NCBI GenBank assembly: GCA_000424365.1
Contig: AUJT01000024.1
Span: 1-64,000 of the forward strand
From: Lachnospiraceae bacterium NK4A144
GTDB lineage: Bacteria > Bacillota > Clostridia > Lachnospirales > Lachnospiraceae
Length of the DNA: 64,000 nucleotides
Reading direction: 5' to 3'
Both the position numbers and the translations under genes were made by a program. The notes beneath the pieces are model-generated. The model did no database searches. It had not been told where the DNA came from and worked only from the letters and a program-made list of their open reading frames with translations. Shown one piece after another: positions 6,233 through 46,801 of this stretch. Each line of letters starts with the position of its first letter. Within the stretch, counting starts at the first letter, position 1.

Positions 6233-6346
6233 CTTCTCTTATTAAGAGTGATGGAGATGCAAAGGATCTGTGAAGTCACGACAACCTCCGATAAAGCTGT
6301 CGGAAGGTGCCAACCTTGAGCGAGTTATGTTTCGAACAATGAGAGG
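6233..6346 (+). ncRNA. SAM-I (S-box) riboswitch
   Basis: The leader has the S-box layout. P1 arms CTCTTAT and ATGAGAG enclose AAGAGTGATGGAG, GCAAAGGATCTGTGAAGTC, CGACAACC, a P3 hairpin TCCG...CGGA and AGGTGCCAACC, the conserved SAM-binding core order. It is followed by an intrinsic terminator (6367-6396), then metK. SAM binding is expected to favour termination, so the gene is turned off when its product is plentiful. Confidence 0.9.
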
Positions 6347-42521: not shown

Positions 42522-43508
42522 TCATCTGCTGTATTCACGCAGACCATAATAATAAAATTTTCTTAGCTTGTTCTTTAAGGATTTGGGTTCAAGTACTACT
42601 GCATCGCGTCCGAAACGCCGAAAGTATTCTTCCAACTGCATCTCGGGCCAGTCAAAGTAGTAGAGATCACCTTCGATCTTTGATACAACGGGACGGTTTT
42701 TGGTTACCAGCTTAAATTTTTTCTGACCAAAATTGTTTAGCCTGACTACTGCATGTACATATAAAGACACGGAATGAGGACTAAGGACAGCTTTTTTCTG
42801 CAGTTCTTTTTGCAGTTCCGGATCGGGCTCAAATGTTTCTGATGTAACAAATGCGCTCCTTATGCGGGAGATCCGGTAGGTGTGCGGTTTTTGCATCCGG
42901 GTATCTCTGCACAGGAGATAATTGCACTGTTCTTCCTTGGACGCAGCGATCATGTATGGTTCAACACGGAAAAAATAGGCTACGGTTGATGAAGTTGTAC
43001 TGAAGGTCAAGATCTTATTCTCTTCGATAGCTCGTGTGATATCCTCGTAGGTGTCCTTAAAGATGATCGCTTCCCTGCTGCTTCTTGGGATTGAGAGGTA
43101 TGAGTTAAACATATCTTTTAGGTACTGGGACAGGGAGGTGTCCTTAAGCATGTTGTTTTCAATGATAGTTATTATTTCATATGATGAACCGCTTACGGTC
43201 AGTGTCAGAGCCTGGTTTTTCCCGCTTTGATACTGATCATTTTTTATGTAGTTATGAATGATCTTATCTGCAAGAGTTGATGCTTCTGTTTCTGAAATTG
43301 TCGTAATATCCGTGAGATCATTAATGATATTGCATAGCAGCTTTTCGCTGTCATGGCGGTACTGCTCAAAATAATTGACTATGAGGGTTTTTAAAAAGGC
43401 ATTCAGGTTCACGGAGCCGTCTTTCTTGGTAAATTCAAAAAGCTCCGCATCATTTAAGAGTCGTGATCTCGTATCTTCCGAAAGATAAATCTTATACTTT
43501 TCTGTCAT
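42522..43508 (-). CDS. WYL-domain transcriptional regulator of the RNA-repair locus
   Basis: 328 residues. The N-terminal part (about 1-60) looks like a ribbon-helix/HTH-type DNA-binding segment (YKIYLSEDTRSRLLNDAELFEF). The C-terminal half has the WYL pattern: RVEPYMIAASKEEQCNYLLCRDTRMQKPHTYRISRIRS, a beta-rich ligand-binding fold that in other regulators senses nucleic-acid or nucleotide ligands. It is divergent from the RNA modules, the Ro60-like and the RtcB genes, so it is the obvious candidate regulator of that operon, perhaps by sensing RNA fragments. Site AAGAGGC before ATG 43508. Confidence 0.8.
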   Translation of the reverse strand: MTEKYKIYLSEDTRSRLLNDAELFEFTKKDGSVNLNAFLKTLIVNYFEQYRHDSEKLLCNIINDLTDITTISETEASTLADKIIHNYIKNDQYQSGKNQALTLTVSGSSYEIITIIENNMLKDTSLSQYLKDMFNSYLSIPRSSREAIIFKDTYEDITRAIEENKILTFSTTSSTVAYFFRVEPYMIAASKEEQCNYLLCRDTRMQKPHTYRISRIRSAFVTSETFEPDPELQKELQKKAVLSPHSVSLYVHAVVRLNNFGQKKFKLVTKNRPVVSKIEGDLYYFDWPEMQLEEYFRRFGRDAVVLEPKSLKNKLRKFYYYGLREYSR

Positions 43509-43661
43509 ATGTGCCTCTTATTAGGGGTTGTAAAAAATATATAAAATAACGAAAAAATGCTATATATAGAATTATATTGGGGTCGTATTTAAACGTCAAT
43601 CTGCATCTTTTTATCTCCAACACTGCGAGGTAATATTTAATCACAACAAAGCAAAAGACAA

Positions 43662-43747
43662 AAGACACTTGCAGCAATCATTTTGGCAGCGAAACATCTG
43701 AGGAAACTTAATGTTTTGTGGGTTCGATTCCCATTTTTATGTGTCTT
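43662..43747 (+). ncRNA. tRNA-like / Y-RNA-like RNA module A
   Basis: Closing stem AAGACAC (43662-43668) / GTGTCTT (43741-43747). Inside are CAGCAATC, a stem AAACAT/ATGTTT, and a canonical T-arm at 43718-43734 with 5-bp stem GTGGG/CCCAT and the 7-base loop TTCGATT, the exact T-loop consensus. No CCA end and no 7-bp acceptor joined to the T-arm, so not a normal tRNA. Confidence 0.7.
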
Positions 43748-43764
43748 GTGCAGTGAGTTGAATA

Positions 43765-43866
43765 AAGATACATCCAGCAATCTACTTGGGACCTGTTGGA
43801 GAGTCGTGGTGGTAATACTCAGACATTGCAGGGTAAGAGCCTGCGGCAGGTTAAAAAATGTATCTT
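43765..43866 (+). ncRNA. tRNA-like / Y-RNA-like RNA module B
   Basis: Perfect 9-bp closing stem AAGATACAT (43765-43773) / ATGTATCTT (43858-43866). The interior opens CCAGCAATC as in module A, has ACCTG (43791-43795) / CAGGT (43847-43851), a GAGT/ACTC stem and a T-arm-like GCAGG-GTAAGAG-CCTGC (43828-43844). A GAGCTGAC/GTCAGCTC hairpin follows directly. Confidence 0.7.
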
Positions 43867-43924
43867 GGAGCTGACTGAAACCACTCATAGGTCAGCTCAT
43901 ATAACAAATTTATGTTTCAGAAAA

Positions 43925-44058
43925 AAATCGCTTAGATACTAACAGCACTTAATCTATTTTACAGCAAGTAGGCTGCATTAAGCAGCACCTGGCTCATAAC
44001 CAGGCTTTCGAGGGTGAAAATCCCTCACTTGAAAAGGATGTATCTAGAACAGCGATTT
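43925..44058 (+). ncRNA. tRNA(CAU)-like / Y-RNA-like RNA module C
   Basis: Outer stem AAATCGCT/AGCGATTT plus TAGATAC/GTATCTA. Inside, 43965-44031 forms a 67-base cloverleaf: 5-bp acceptor CAAGT/ACTTG, two bases, D-arm GCTGC/GCAGC, one base, anticodon arm CCTGG-CTCATAA-CCAGG with a CAT anticodon, a 5-base variable loop, T-arm GAGGG-TGAAAAT-CCCTC. The acceptor is short and the T-loop lacks TTC, so it is a mimic rather than a functional tRNA. Confidence 0.75.
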
Positions 44059-44090
44059 AAGCAGAAGGTTTAAGAAAGAGGGGAATATAA

Positions 44091-45563
44091 ATGTTAGAGT
44101 TCTTAAAAAAGACATTAAATAAAACATTAACAGAAAACGGAGCAGCAGCTTACCATTCAAGCGGATCTGAGTGCCTGGACCTCTTTGCTACGATCGGCGC
44201 ACTCAGAAATAATTCGGATGAGGAGATCATACAGCGTTTTATCAAGGCATATGCTGATGATCCTGATCTTGCAATGAAGATCCTTTTCTTTGCAAGAGAT
44301 ATCAGAGGAGGGTTAGGCGAGAGACGTGTTTTCAGAGTGATCCTTAAGTTCCTTGCAGAAAATGAGCCTGATTCGGCAGAAAAGAATATAGAGTATGTGG
44401 CAGAATACGGTAGATTTGATGATCTGCTGGAGCTTTTAGATACACCGCTTGAGAAAAAGGTTGTTTCATATATTGAAGATCGCCTTAAGAAAGATATTGA
44501 AGAACTCAATGGTTCCGGGAATATCTCACTTCTCGCAAAGTGGCTACCTTCCATTAACACAAGTGATAAAACAGTAGTTAGGAAAGCAAGGAAAATAGCG
44601 AAAGCTATTGGCATGAGCGAGAAAGATTATAGAAAGACATTGTCCGCGCTCAGAGCTGAGATAAAGATCATTGAAAATAACCTTAGAGAAAAGAATTACA
44701 CATTTGATTACGAAAAACAGCCTTCAAAGGCACTTTATAAATACAGAAAGGCATTTATCAGAAACGATTCGGAGAGATACAATTCTTTCATGGAAAAGGC
44801 TGCAGGAAATCCAAATGTGATCCATACAGGAACGCTTACACCATATGACATCATCGCGCCTATAGCGAAATGGTTTGATAATACCGGAAGTCTTAGTGCA
44901 GAGGAGCGCAGGGCAATGGATGTTACATGGAATTCTCTTGAAAACTATGCAGGCTCAGATAATTCTCTTGTAGTAGTGGATGGATCAGGATCGATGTATA
45001 TGCAGAATCATCCAAGTCCGGCAGCAGTAGCGCAGTCCCTTGGTATATACTTTGCAGAACGAAATACAGGAGCTTTTAGTAATCATTTTATTACTTTTTC
45101 ATCTAATCCCAGACTGGTAGAAGTTAAGGGCAGGGATATCGTTGAAAAAGTCCGGTACTGCATGAGCTTTAATGAATGCAGTAACACAAATCTTGAGAAA
45201 ACCTTCAATCTGATCCTTAAGACGGCATTGATGAACAGGCTGAAAAAATCCGATCTTCCGAAGAGGCTCATCATTATTTCGGATATGGAATTTGATTGCG
45301 GTACAGTGAATTCGGATAAAACGATTTTTGAAAGTGCAAGGAAACGGTTTAAAATGTGCGGATACAAACTGCCGCAGGTTGTTTTCTGGAATGTTAACAG
45401 CCGAAACCGTCAGCAGCCTGTCAGGGTAAATGACCAGGGAGTGATCCTCGTTTCGGGATGTTCGCCTCAGATCTTTTCGATGTTAAAAGAGGGCGATTTT
45501 GAACCCTACAAGTTTATGATGAAAGTTCTGTCATCCGAAAGATACGAAAAAATATCGGCGTAA
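44091..45563 (+). CDS. Ro60-like TROVE/DUF2828 protein with vWA domain
   Basis: 490 residues. The N-terminal two thirds are helical repeats of the TROVE/DUF2828 type (ECLDLFATIGALRN, MKILFFARDIRGGLGERRVFR, LLAKWLPSINT). The C-terminal third is a vWA domain with an intact MIDAS start (VVVDGSGSM) and LIIISDMEFDC. Ro60/Rsr rings bind Y RNAs and misfolded RNA ends and work with nucleases or repair enzymes. The gene follows three tRNA-like RNA modules and precedes rtcB in one operon. Site AAGAGGGG. Whether it is a true TROVE or the DUF2828 sister group needs a profile search. Confidence 0.82.
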   Translation: MLEFLKKTLNKTLTENGAAAYHSSGSECLDLFATIGALRNNSDEEIIQRFIKAYADDPDLAMKILFFARDIRGGLGERRVFRVILKFLAENEPDSAEKNIEYVAEYGRFDDLLELLDTPLEKKVVSYIEDRLKKDIEELNGSGNISLLAKWLPSINTSDKTVVRKARKIAKAIGMSEKDYRKTLSALRAEIKIIENNLREKNYTFDYEKQPSKALYKYRKAFIRNDSERYNSFMEKAAGNPNVIHTGTLTPYDIIAPIAKWFDNTGSLSAEERRAMDVTWNSLENYAGSDNSLVVVDGSGSMYMQNHPSPAAVAQSLGIYFAERNTGAFSNHFITFSSNPRLVEVKGRDIVEKVRYCMSFNECSNTNLEKTFNLILKTALMNRLKKSDLPKRLIIISDMEFDCGTVNSDKTIFESARKRFKMCGYKLPQVVFWNVNSRNRQQPVRVNDQGVILVSGCSPQIFSMLKEGDFEPYKFMMKVLSSERYEKISA

Positions 45564-45583
45564 TGACAGATATGTGGAGAAAA

Positions 45584-46801
45584 ATGAATACGATTGAAAT
45601 AAAGGGAAAAGTAAATACAGCCCTCTGCTACGCAAAGGTAGTTGAGGATGAGGCAATAGAGCAGATCCGACGGATGTGTGATTATCCAATGACAGCCGGT
45701 TCAAAGATAAGGATAATGCCGGATGTCCATGCAGGAAAAGGATGTACCATCGGAACTACCATGACTATTACGGATAAAGCCGTTCCAAATGTGGTAGGGG
45801 TTGATATCGGATGCGGTATGTACACGGTAAATCTTGGCAAGAAAGATATTGACCTTGAGAAACTAGATATGGCAGCTTTTTATATTCCGTCAGGAATGAA
45901 TGTATGGGAAGGGAGATCTGAAAGATTTGATCTTGAGTCTCTTCGCTGTTACAGGGATCTGAAACAGACAAAGAGACTTGAGAGATCCCTTGGAACACTT
46001 GGAGGCGGCAATCATTTCATCGAAGTTGACAGGTCTTCAGACGGAACGCAGTATCTCGTAATTCATTCAGGGTCGAGAAATCTTGGTAAACAGGTGGCTG
46101 AAATATATCAGGCTCTTGCTGTAGATCTTGATAAAGGAATCGGTGATTATCTCGAAGCCCGTGATGAACTTATAAAGACCTATAAGGCACAGGGACGGCG
46201 TAAAGAAATCCAAAATGCGTTAAAGGAACTTTATAAGAAAAAGTTCAATGACGGCCCGGCAACGATGCCCGCTGATCTATGTTACTTATCAGGAAAATAT
46301 CTCGAAGATTATCTTCATGACGTAGAAATATGTCAAAAATTTGCACGCCGGAACCGTGAAAAGATGGCAGAGATCCTTATAGAAAAAGCAGATTTAAACG
46401 CAGGAGAGGCGTTTCACACTATCCATAATTATATTGATACGGATGAAATGATACTTCGAAAAGGCTCAATTGCTGCACACGAGGGAGAAAAAGTCCTGAT
46501 TCCAATTAATATGCGGGACGGATCTGTGTTGGCTGTAGGGAAGGGTAATCCCGATTGGAATTATTCGGCACCTCACGGAGCAGGAAGGATAATGTCACGT
46601 ACATCTGCCAAGAATACTCTATCTATGGATGAATACAAGGAATCTATGAAGGGCATTTATACATCATCCGTATGCGAAGATACTCTTGATGAGGCACCGA
46701 TGGCATACAAATCCTTAGATGACATTATTGATGTGATAAAAGAATCCGTAGAAATAATCGATGTAATGAAACCGATATACAATTTCAAGGCAACATCGTA
46801 A
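45584..46801 (+). CDS. rtcB: RNA ligase RtcB
   Basis: 405 residues, somewhat shorter than the about 480 of E. coli RtcB. GTP- and Mn-dependent ligase joining 2',3'-cyclic phosphate (or 3'-phosphate) to 5'-OH RNA ends. Visible are IMPDVHAGKGCTIGTT, GVDIGCGM (Mn-binding Cys), LGGGNHFIEV, HSGSRNLGK, and SAPHGAGRIMSR with the histidine guanylylated in catalysis. Start ATG 45584 matches the family N-terminus (NTIEIKG); ATG 45563 overlapping the upstream stop is also possible. No archease or RtcA gene is adjacent. Confidence 0.92.
   Translation: MNTIEIKGKVNTALCYAKVVEDEAIEQIRRMCDYPMTAGSKIRIMPDVHAGKGCTIGTTMTITDKAVPNVVGVDIGCGMYTVNLGKKDIDLEKLDMAAFYIPSGMNVWEGRSERFDLESLRCYRDLKQTKRLERSLGTLGGGNHFIEVDRSSDGTQYLVIHSGSRNLGKQVAEIYQALAVDLDKGIGDYLEARDELIKTYKAQGRRKEIQNALKELYKKKFNDGPATMPADLCYLSGKYLEDYLHDVEICQKFARRNREKMAEILIEKADLNAGEAFHTIHNYIDTDEMILRKGSIAAHEGEKVLIPINMRDGSVLAVGKGNPDWNYSAPHGAGRIMSRTSAKNTLSMDEYKESMKGIYTSSVCEDTLDEAPMAYKSLDDIIDVIKESVEIIDVMKPIYNFKATS

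Follow-up and report, generated by a model that had tools for sequence, protein, structure and literature searches.

What do three short structured modules encode when they stand in front of a Ro60-like gene that is itself followed by an RNA ligase gene? The question is raised by a stretch of 64,000 nt from Lachnospiraceae bacterium NK4A144 (contig AUJT01000024.1, positions 1 to 64,000; hereafter the window), in which three RNA modules lie on the plus strand in the gap between a divergent WYL regulator gene and a DUF2828-rtcB operon. Our analysis suggests, with a probability of roughly three in four (0.77), that the modules encode Y-like noncoding RNAs of a DUF2828-type Ro60 particle that acts with RtcB. 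This explanation, the best overall, is supported by a conserved RNA structure, covariation, linkage to DUF2828 in bacteria and phages, a predicted Ro60 fold of the protein, and tRNA mimicry.

The modules share one plan, in which a 7-base strand is followed by three bases and then CAGCA, and the 3' end is the exact complement of the opening strand:

43662-43747, plus strand: module A, with the stem AAGACAC (43662-43668) / GTGTCTT (43741-43747), CAGCA at 43672, a hairpin and a T-arm
43718-43734, plus strand: T-arm of module A, GTGGGTTCGATTCCCAT, with the loop TTCGATT
43765-43866, plus strand: module B, with the stem AAGATACAT (43765-43773) / ATGTATCTT (43858-43866) and CAGCA at 43775
43933-44046, plus strand: module C, which reads as an unpermuted mini-cloverleaf, with the stem TAGATAC (43933-43939) / GTATCTA (44040-44046) and CAGCA at 43943
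43965-44031, plus strand: tRNA-like domain of module C, an Rfam tRNA match of 29.7 bits in linear order

The closing stem, the CAGCA three bases on and the interiors described in an initial annotation of this DNA (the T-arm of A, a GTAAGAG loop on a 5-bp stem in B, and CCTGG-CTCATAA-CCAGG in C) were all recovered at their exact positions. In module B the closing stem reaches 9 bp by extending into the three spacer bases, and the interior stem with its 7-base loop recurs in the B modules of loci L009 and L017; in module C the anticodon-like arm carries its loop CTCATAA (CAU) at 43993-43999. WAGRYRCNNNCAGCA was matched at 14 places in the 68-contig genome, with a closing strand within about 200 nt only at these three. 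Single-sequence folding gave z-scores against shuffles of -2.0, -2.2 and -3.4 for A, B and C, and for module C RNAalifold on 6 homologues had both sides changed in 7 of 23 pairs. Module C alone among the three received an Rfam tRNA call, against a threshold of 29 bits, and ARAGORN called no complete cloverleaf within 43662-44046.

The plan is not peculiar to this genome. A DUF2828 protein search returned 42 bacterial loci, of which L031 (no upstream sequence) and L042 (a fragment) were excluded, so that 40 loci and the window made 41; they are mostly titled Lachnospiraceae, Butyrivibrio, Oribacterium, Ruminococcaceae, Saccharofermentans or other Clostridia. When every pentamer lying 3 nt past a perfect 7-bp stem was recorded in their upstream regions, CAGCA came first, in 39 of the 41 loci, with unrelated pentamers in at most 7; on the opposite strand the same test reached at most 5 loci. 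Counted in reverse, the stem was present at 74 of 105 occurrences of CAGCA vs 397 of 27,864 other pentamers. Dropping 5 of 79 candidates for a score below 7.5 (the L005 and L016 candidates are probably genuine, with a one-base shift) left 74 modules in 39 loci, and their stems fall into types A (AAGACAC, 34 modules), D (AAGGTGC or TAGGTGC, 25), C (TAGATAC, 5) and B (AAGATAC, 4), plus 6 others. The stem is nearly fixed inside a type, and between types both strands change together. The initial annotation had staked its reading beforehand on conservation and covariation of the shared stem in related loci, and both were found; its view that a tandem layout is unusual did not hold, tandem copies being the rule. 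A strict count allowing CTGCA, CAGCG and CAGCC gave two modules in 28 loci, three in 5 (clearly in the window, L011, L017 and L037, doubtfully in L026, with its CAGCC match), one in 7 and none in 1. Because MAFFT aligns the variable interiors wrongly, consensus folding of the A-type and D-type alignments yielded hardly more than the terminal stem, to which type A adds the T-arm. Upstream of the genes in L001-L003 lie decayed or recombined modules, namely a truncated D type, an A-C fusion and a C type with a deleted interior.

The modules also accompany DUF2828 in phages, which makes the finding larger than was first stated. A match to DUF2828 is present in 682 of 50,697 phage records and 4 of 72,556 plasmids; a peptide-pattern search for it in viral contigs, with seeds that were probably too strict, gave none that could be confirmed. 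Among the 23 phage and plasmid neighbourhoods scanned (L069 and L073 were left aside as near copies of L058 and L059), 17 have modules within 3 kb of the DUF2828 gene, upstream or downstream; in L061 the sole module is a CAGCC variant whose stem includes a G-U pair. The phage stems have other sequences that are still complementary, CAGCA again came first in the unbiased test (15 of 23, the next unrelated pentamer reaching 9), and the strand bias is 58 modules to 10 in favour of the gene's strand. No RNA partner is marked at the modules in the phage feature tables consulted, some records carrying no annotation. Genes for SPFH/band-7 proteins adjoin the phage DUF2828 gene in L075 and L084.

A covariance model, R1, was made from 26 short phage modules (alignment A7), which are 30 of the 36 short modules that have a 3-nt spacer (A6), minus four rows; alignments A5 and A6 misplaced some 3' strands. 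Searching the whole records of six module-free neighbourhoods, R1 found matches about 7 to 200 kb from the DUF2828 gene in five of these phages, with best E-values of 1.7e-8 in Vibrio nt-1, 3.6e-7 in Aeromonas PX29, 6.6e-7 in Erwinia SNUABM_19 (plus four further matches), 1.8e-5 in Salmonella PHA46 and 0.007 in Vibrio D484. The strict scanner had missed the modules of D484 and PX29 because the former has the variant CTGCA and the latter six pairs and a 4-nt spacer. In the fetched regions the distant modules stand among or beside tRNA genes, on the tRNAs' strand. The phage-only model also finds module A of the window (E = 9e-5; the sole other match at E <= 1 covers 24 bases, at 0.62), and it finds none of three YrlA loci.

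Does the motif follow Ro60-like proteins at large, or one branch of them? Of 398 genomes from the window's phylum, 7 encode DUF2828 and 9 encode PF05731, the canonical TROVE family; the PF05731 loci, like all loci from genome searches, span about 1.5 kb either side of the match. Upstream of DUF2828, stem-nnn-CAGCA is present in 5 of the six non-self genomes (three from one genus), and inspection by eye shows CAGCC variants in the sixth, G092. Two of the 398 genomes contain the A pattern, and both have DUF2828. The canonical TROVE loci contain a convincing module in 0 of 9, and 6 of them have YrlA matches below the Rfam threshold (E 1.2e-5 to 2.9e-3). With modules in the DUF2828 loci and none convincing in the nine TROVE loci, the stem-CAGCA motif therefore goes with the DUF2828 branch of Ro60-like proteins. 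The YrlA model (RF02553) has no match in the window at the gathering score, none at E <= 1 within 43505-44095, and none at E <= 0.1 in seven related loci. In the window's own genome there are two YrlA-like sub-threshold matches, one of them (L071) in a tRNA array, and 0 matches to PF05731.

The genes around the modules are:

42522-43508, minus strand: divergent WYL-domain regulator gene (Pfam WYL, 5.9e-5)
44091-45563, plus strand: DUF2828/DUF7788 gene for a predicted Ro60-like protein with a vWA domain (Pfam; AlphaFold2, Foldseek and VIA-align to Ro60)
45563-46801, plus strand: RtcB RNA ligase gene (Pfam PF01139, 3.8e-56)

Both the Ro60-like nature of the 44091-45563 product and the RtcB gene had been proposed from the letters alone, and Pfam agrees on the latter. 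The predicted model of the DUF2828 protein shows a helical-repeat domain and a vWA fold, as in Ro60/TROVE, and all 13 PDB matches of the AlphaFold2 model at E < 0.001 in Foldseek are Ro60/TROVE, which supports a Ro60-like fold. D297, S299, S301 and D398 are invariant in 17 aligned DUF2828 sequences (L018 was excluded), and we take them to form the metal ion-dependent adhesion site (MIDAS) of the vWA domain, with its DxSxS motif. A WYL homologue is present in 37 of the 40 related loci, and RtcB was found in 30.

Two general traits of bacterial Y RNAs are present here, namely 5' and 3' ends that pair into a putative docking stem, and a gene for a Ro60-family protein (by predicted fold) beside them. 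YrlA resembles the modules in that its ends form a stem beside a Ro60-family gene and in its tRNA-like part; however, the order of its strands differs. In the Rfam consensus the two strands of the Ro stem enclose a T-arm, a closed acceptor and a D-arm, in that order, and the consensus as shown is without CAGCA. Seen as a tRNA, YrlA is circularly permuted and bears its Ro stem at the anticodon end. ARAGORN, run with circular topology and an anticodon-loop insert as a detector of permuted tRNAs, read all 6 of 6 sub-threshold YrlA candidates as permuted, and likewise 6 of the 9 phage modules that measure 110 nt or more (shuffles 0 of 900), with two further permuted readings in the Erwinia phage. 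Bacterial modules of at least 85 nt were never read in this way (0 of 41), whereas 3 of 41 were read as linear tRNAs (L009 CAU, L024 UCG, L039 CAU; shuffles 0 of 1,230). Across 15 bacterial loci, Rfam placed linear tRNA domains inside modules of L001, L004, L005, L007, L024, L037 and L039, and in the fused module of L002. Wherever a tRNA shape is recognisable in the window's group, it therefore reads as unpermuted, with the Ro stem on the acceptor side and the anticodon arm displayed. The Y RNA reading of the initial annotation stands as far as the paired ends beside a Ro60-like gene are concerned, but not as membership of the YrlA family.

There is also a third form, a complete linear tRNA whose anticodon loop holds a Ro-type stem as a closed hairpin, in four phages and one bacterium (the phage tRNAs measure 110-117 nt):

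L062:4851-4960: insert-form phage tRNA
L081:2707-2821: insert-form phage tRNA
L079:4675-4788: insert-form phage tRNA
L075:367-483: insert-form phage tRNA
L055:1316-1428: insert-form bacterial tRNA of G311, with the hairpin GTCTT-GTAA-AAGAC and CAGCA in the anticodon loop, between rtcB-like sequence and DUF2828

The motif reads CTGCA in L062 and L079, and two of the phage tRNAs are annotated, one as tRNA-Undet and one as a suppressor tRNA. These calls come from ARAGORN in linear mode with an insert, without a shuffle control, and 4 of the 5, the phage ones, are also Rfam tRNAs at 50-54 bits. A second G311 RNA (L055 from 1208), the last of six candidates, was not confirmed as a tRNA with an insert. 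In the insert hairpin a CTTGT-like 3' end is connected with an AAAG-like 5' start, most clearly in G311 and L081, and the form looks as if a permuted RNA had had its ends ligated. Permuted (in phages), insert-form linear and the unpermuted acceptor-end form of the window may be three topologies of one design, which RtcB may interconvert by ligation.

Published work, cited here for those parts of each paper that were accessible, provides several points of comparison. YrlA lies within the rtcB operon in some bacteria (PMC7790460, PMC8394870), and the rsr-yrlBA-rtcBA operon of Salmonella likewise combines a Ro60-like protein, Y RNAs and RtcB (PMC7790460); unlike that operon, the present one encodes DUF2828 rather than TROVE, carries its RNAs at the front, and has a divergent WYL gene in the place that RtcR takes in Salmonella. 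The Ro-like RNA binding proteins of mycobacteriophages and other phages belong to the DUF2828 family, several records calling the product a Ro-like RNA binding protein, and phage YrlA RNAs have been reported (PMC12282133, PMC7765460). Some members of the family described here, for example mycobacteriophage Y RNAs, have likely been described before. The idea that ROT/TROVE proteins and tRNA-like partners form an RNA-repair platform reportedly stems from Burroughs and Aravind in 2016. It is stated in PMC7824862, although neither a consensus nor a topology nor a displayed anticodon is given in the accessible part of that paper. Rsr, YrlA, the PNPase tether, the rtcBA operon and the Ro/tRNA-like repair platform are covered in PMC7790460, PMC8394870, PMC7824862, PMC12282133, PMC7765460, PMC11208441, PMC9569102 and PMC10264068; neither the stem-CAGCA rule nor the unpermuted form appears in the parts compared, and key papers on YrlA and RNA repair lie outside this comparison. 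On these sequences, the DUF2828 Ro60-like proteins of bacteria and phages are accompanied by a family of Y-like RNAs, which in build resembles a Y RNA without belonging to YrlA; in the window's group its topology is absent from the YrlA model.

Such RNAs might instead work as in Deinococcus, tethering the Ro60-like protein to PNPase for RNA degradation, with RtcB as a mere neighbour. This mechanism is established for bacterial Y RNA (PMC8394870, PMC7790460) and the Ro fold is common to both; however, 30 of 40 loci have RtcB next to the gene, and both the conserved motif and the topology differ from those of YrlA; we consider a pure tether rather unlikely. A cis-acting leader of the DUF2828-rtcB mRNA, riboswitch-like or an attenuator, would agree with the position of the bacterial modules on the coding strand between the divergent WYL gene and the operon. 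Yet the modules of mycobacteriophage, Felixounavirus and staphylococcal phages follow the gene, and those of the phages Vibrio nt-1, Aeromonas PX29, Erwinia SNUABM_19 and Salmonella PHA46 stand at a distance from it, amid or next to tRNA genes. Where the gene order is reversed, modules come before rtcB (L060, L070) or between rtcB and DUF2828 (L035). Since phage modules stand either beside the gene or among distant tRNA genes, a leader role does not fit and is improbable. Decayed tRNA genes or chance inverted repeats, which would explain why Rfam and ARAGORN score only some modules as tRNA, are scarcely credible given a stem and CAGCA kept across bacteria and phages with compensatory change, the ends staying while the interior changes. 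Equally far-fetched is the idea that a mobile element left these repeats, or has its ends here, with a role at the DNA level. It is suggested by the 7-bp inverted repeats and the degraded and fused copies in L001-L003 but contradicted by the asymmetry of CAGCA, which is present on one side and not on the other, by paired changes, by tRNA-like interiors and by the strand bias of 58 vs 10 in phage and plasmid loci.

As Y-like RNAs of a DUF2828-type Ro60 particle, the modules could act as follows. Each RNA would dock on the Ro60-like protein through its end-to-end stem and the adjacent CAGCA, and would present on its opposite side a tRNA-like part, which is a T-arm in A, a T-arm-like stem in B and a mini-cloverleaf with an intact anticodon arm in C. 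The particle and the RtcB of the same operon would act on tRNAs cut in the anticodon loop, either by holding broken tRNAs for resealing or by offering anticodon nucleases a bait loop, by which these enzymes would be diverted and reported and which could itself be resealed. The WYL regulator would switch the set on. We infer that the RNAs are produced and processed, bound by the protein and regulated, with a role in repair or as bait.

The displayed loops bear on the second option. Anticodon-like hairpins, defined by at least 4 Watson-Crick pairs and a loop Y-U-NNN-A-H with TTCRA T-loops excluded, were counted in 17 of 74 bacterial modules (mean 0.49 and maximum 3 in 100 shuffle sets; mirrored loop 0), in 14 of 56 phage and plasmid modules (shuffle mean 1.05, maximum 6; mirrored loop 1) and in 3 of 6 YrlA near TROVE (shuffles 0.06), all counts being inflated by shared descent. 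In D-type modules the loop CTGTNA[AC] occurs in 12 of 25 vs 2.3% in shuffles, with N as U in 5, C in 5 and A in 2, so that U33-G34-U35 is kept and position 36 varies. Colicin E5 and queuosine transglycosylase recognise UGU within anticodons of the GUN type; a kept UGU with a variable position 36 is what would be expected under selection by an enzyme that reads UGU and not a codon. The YrlA-like RNAs of TROVE loci L087, L089 and L092 carry a separate hairpin with the loop CTGTTAA, a look-alike of the Asn anticodon arm.

The bacterial modules display mainly CAU (4), GUU (4), GUC (4) and GUA (2), and the phage modules UUU (4), GGU (3, two of them doubtful) and CAU (2), with CUU, GCU, UCU and others once each. 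PrrC cuts tRNA-Lys(UUU), VapC-LT2 targets tRNA-fMet, and the same source covers colicin E5 and notes that phages, with exceptions, avoid encoding tRNAs that are cut in the anticodon itself (PMC10264068). The fit of the displayed anticodons to nuclease targets appears suggestive, and we tentatively propose, as a possibility that falls short of an even chance, that the RNAs are baits, Ro60-docked tRNA mimics whose anticodon loops were chosen for anticodon nucleases and which are paired with a ligase that reseals them.

Several observations weigh against the particle reading. A module is lacking in the bacterial locus L036 and in phage Lak-B4, where the best R1 match has E = 0.165; R1 does not find window modules B or C at E <= 1 and finds only 6 of 12 other DUF2828 loci tried at E < 0.01; and the TROVE control L086 has one perfect-stem CAGCA match per strand, the gene-strand one downstream of the gene. 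The T-loop is missing from 42 of 74 modules and the anticodon-like hairpin from 57 of 74, one of the 17 hairpins (L023_3899) is a T-loop look-alike, some anticodons are singletons, and the window has an anticodon arm in module C only. The search for RtcB was negative in 10 of 40 bacterial loci, of which some are short contigs; of 25 phage and plasmid loci, only L059, L060, L070 and L073 gave a match. The AlphaFold2 model is of moderate quality (predicted local distance difference test, pLDDT, 77.9; predicted template modelling score, pTM, 0.57), the matches listed at E <= 10 do not include PF05731, either for the window protein or for five of its phage homologues, and phmmer of the window protein against the PDB gave no chain at E 0.01. 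The Listeria phage CKA15, whose DUF2828 protein is present in purified virions, makes very abundant putative noncoding RNAs that its authors suggested as possible Y RNAs (PMC12282133); these RNAs (L073:2018-2328) do not contain the module, and their identification with it was rejected.

Further elements accompany the modules in the gap:

43868-43898, plus strand: hairpin GAGCTGAC...GTCAGCTC directly 3' of module B, read from the sequence
43524-43530, plus strand: GGGGTYG box 1
43579-43585, plus strand: GGGGTYG box 2

Similar hairpins follow module B in L009 and L017 by eye, and the one in the window, which is not among the sites listed by a terminator scan, is a possible terminator or processing site. 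The two GGGGTYG boxes lie 55 bp apart, a pair at 55-56 bp spacing recurs in 24 of 41 loci, and they are probably sites of the WYL regulator. A promoter-like TTGACG-17-TATAAT for the WYL gene (43599-43571, minus strand; one site found, 1.6 expected in shuffles) overlaps the second box. Elsewhere in the window lies an S-adenosylmethionine (SAM) riboswitch (6236-6345, plus strand; 59.4 bits).

For the DUF2828 branch of Ro60-like proteins, which is also present in gut and rumen bacteria, these results provide a candidate RNA partner with a simple rule, a 7-bp stem, about 3 nt and CAGCA, and some phage tRNA annotations of undetermined type turn out to carry a Ro-type stem. The role of Y RNAs in RNA-repair operons becomes directly testable, and anticodon loops on putatively Ro60-docked RNAs beside an RNA ligase suggest that this role may lie in tRNA repair or in decoy defence.
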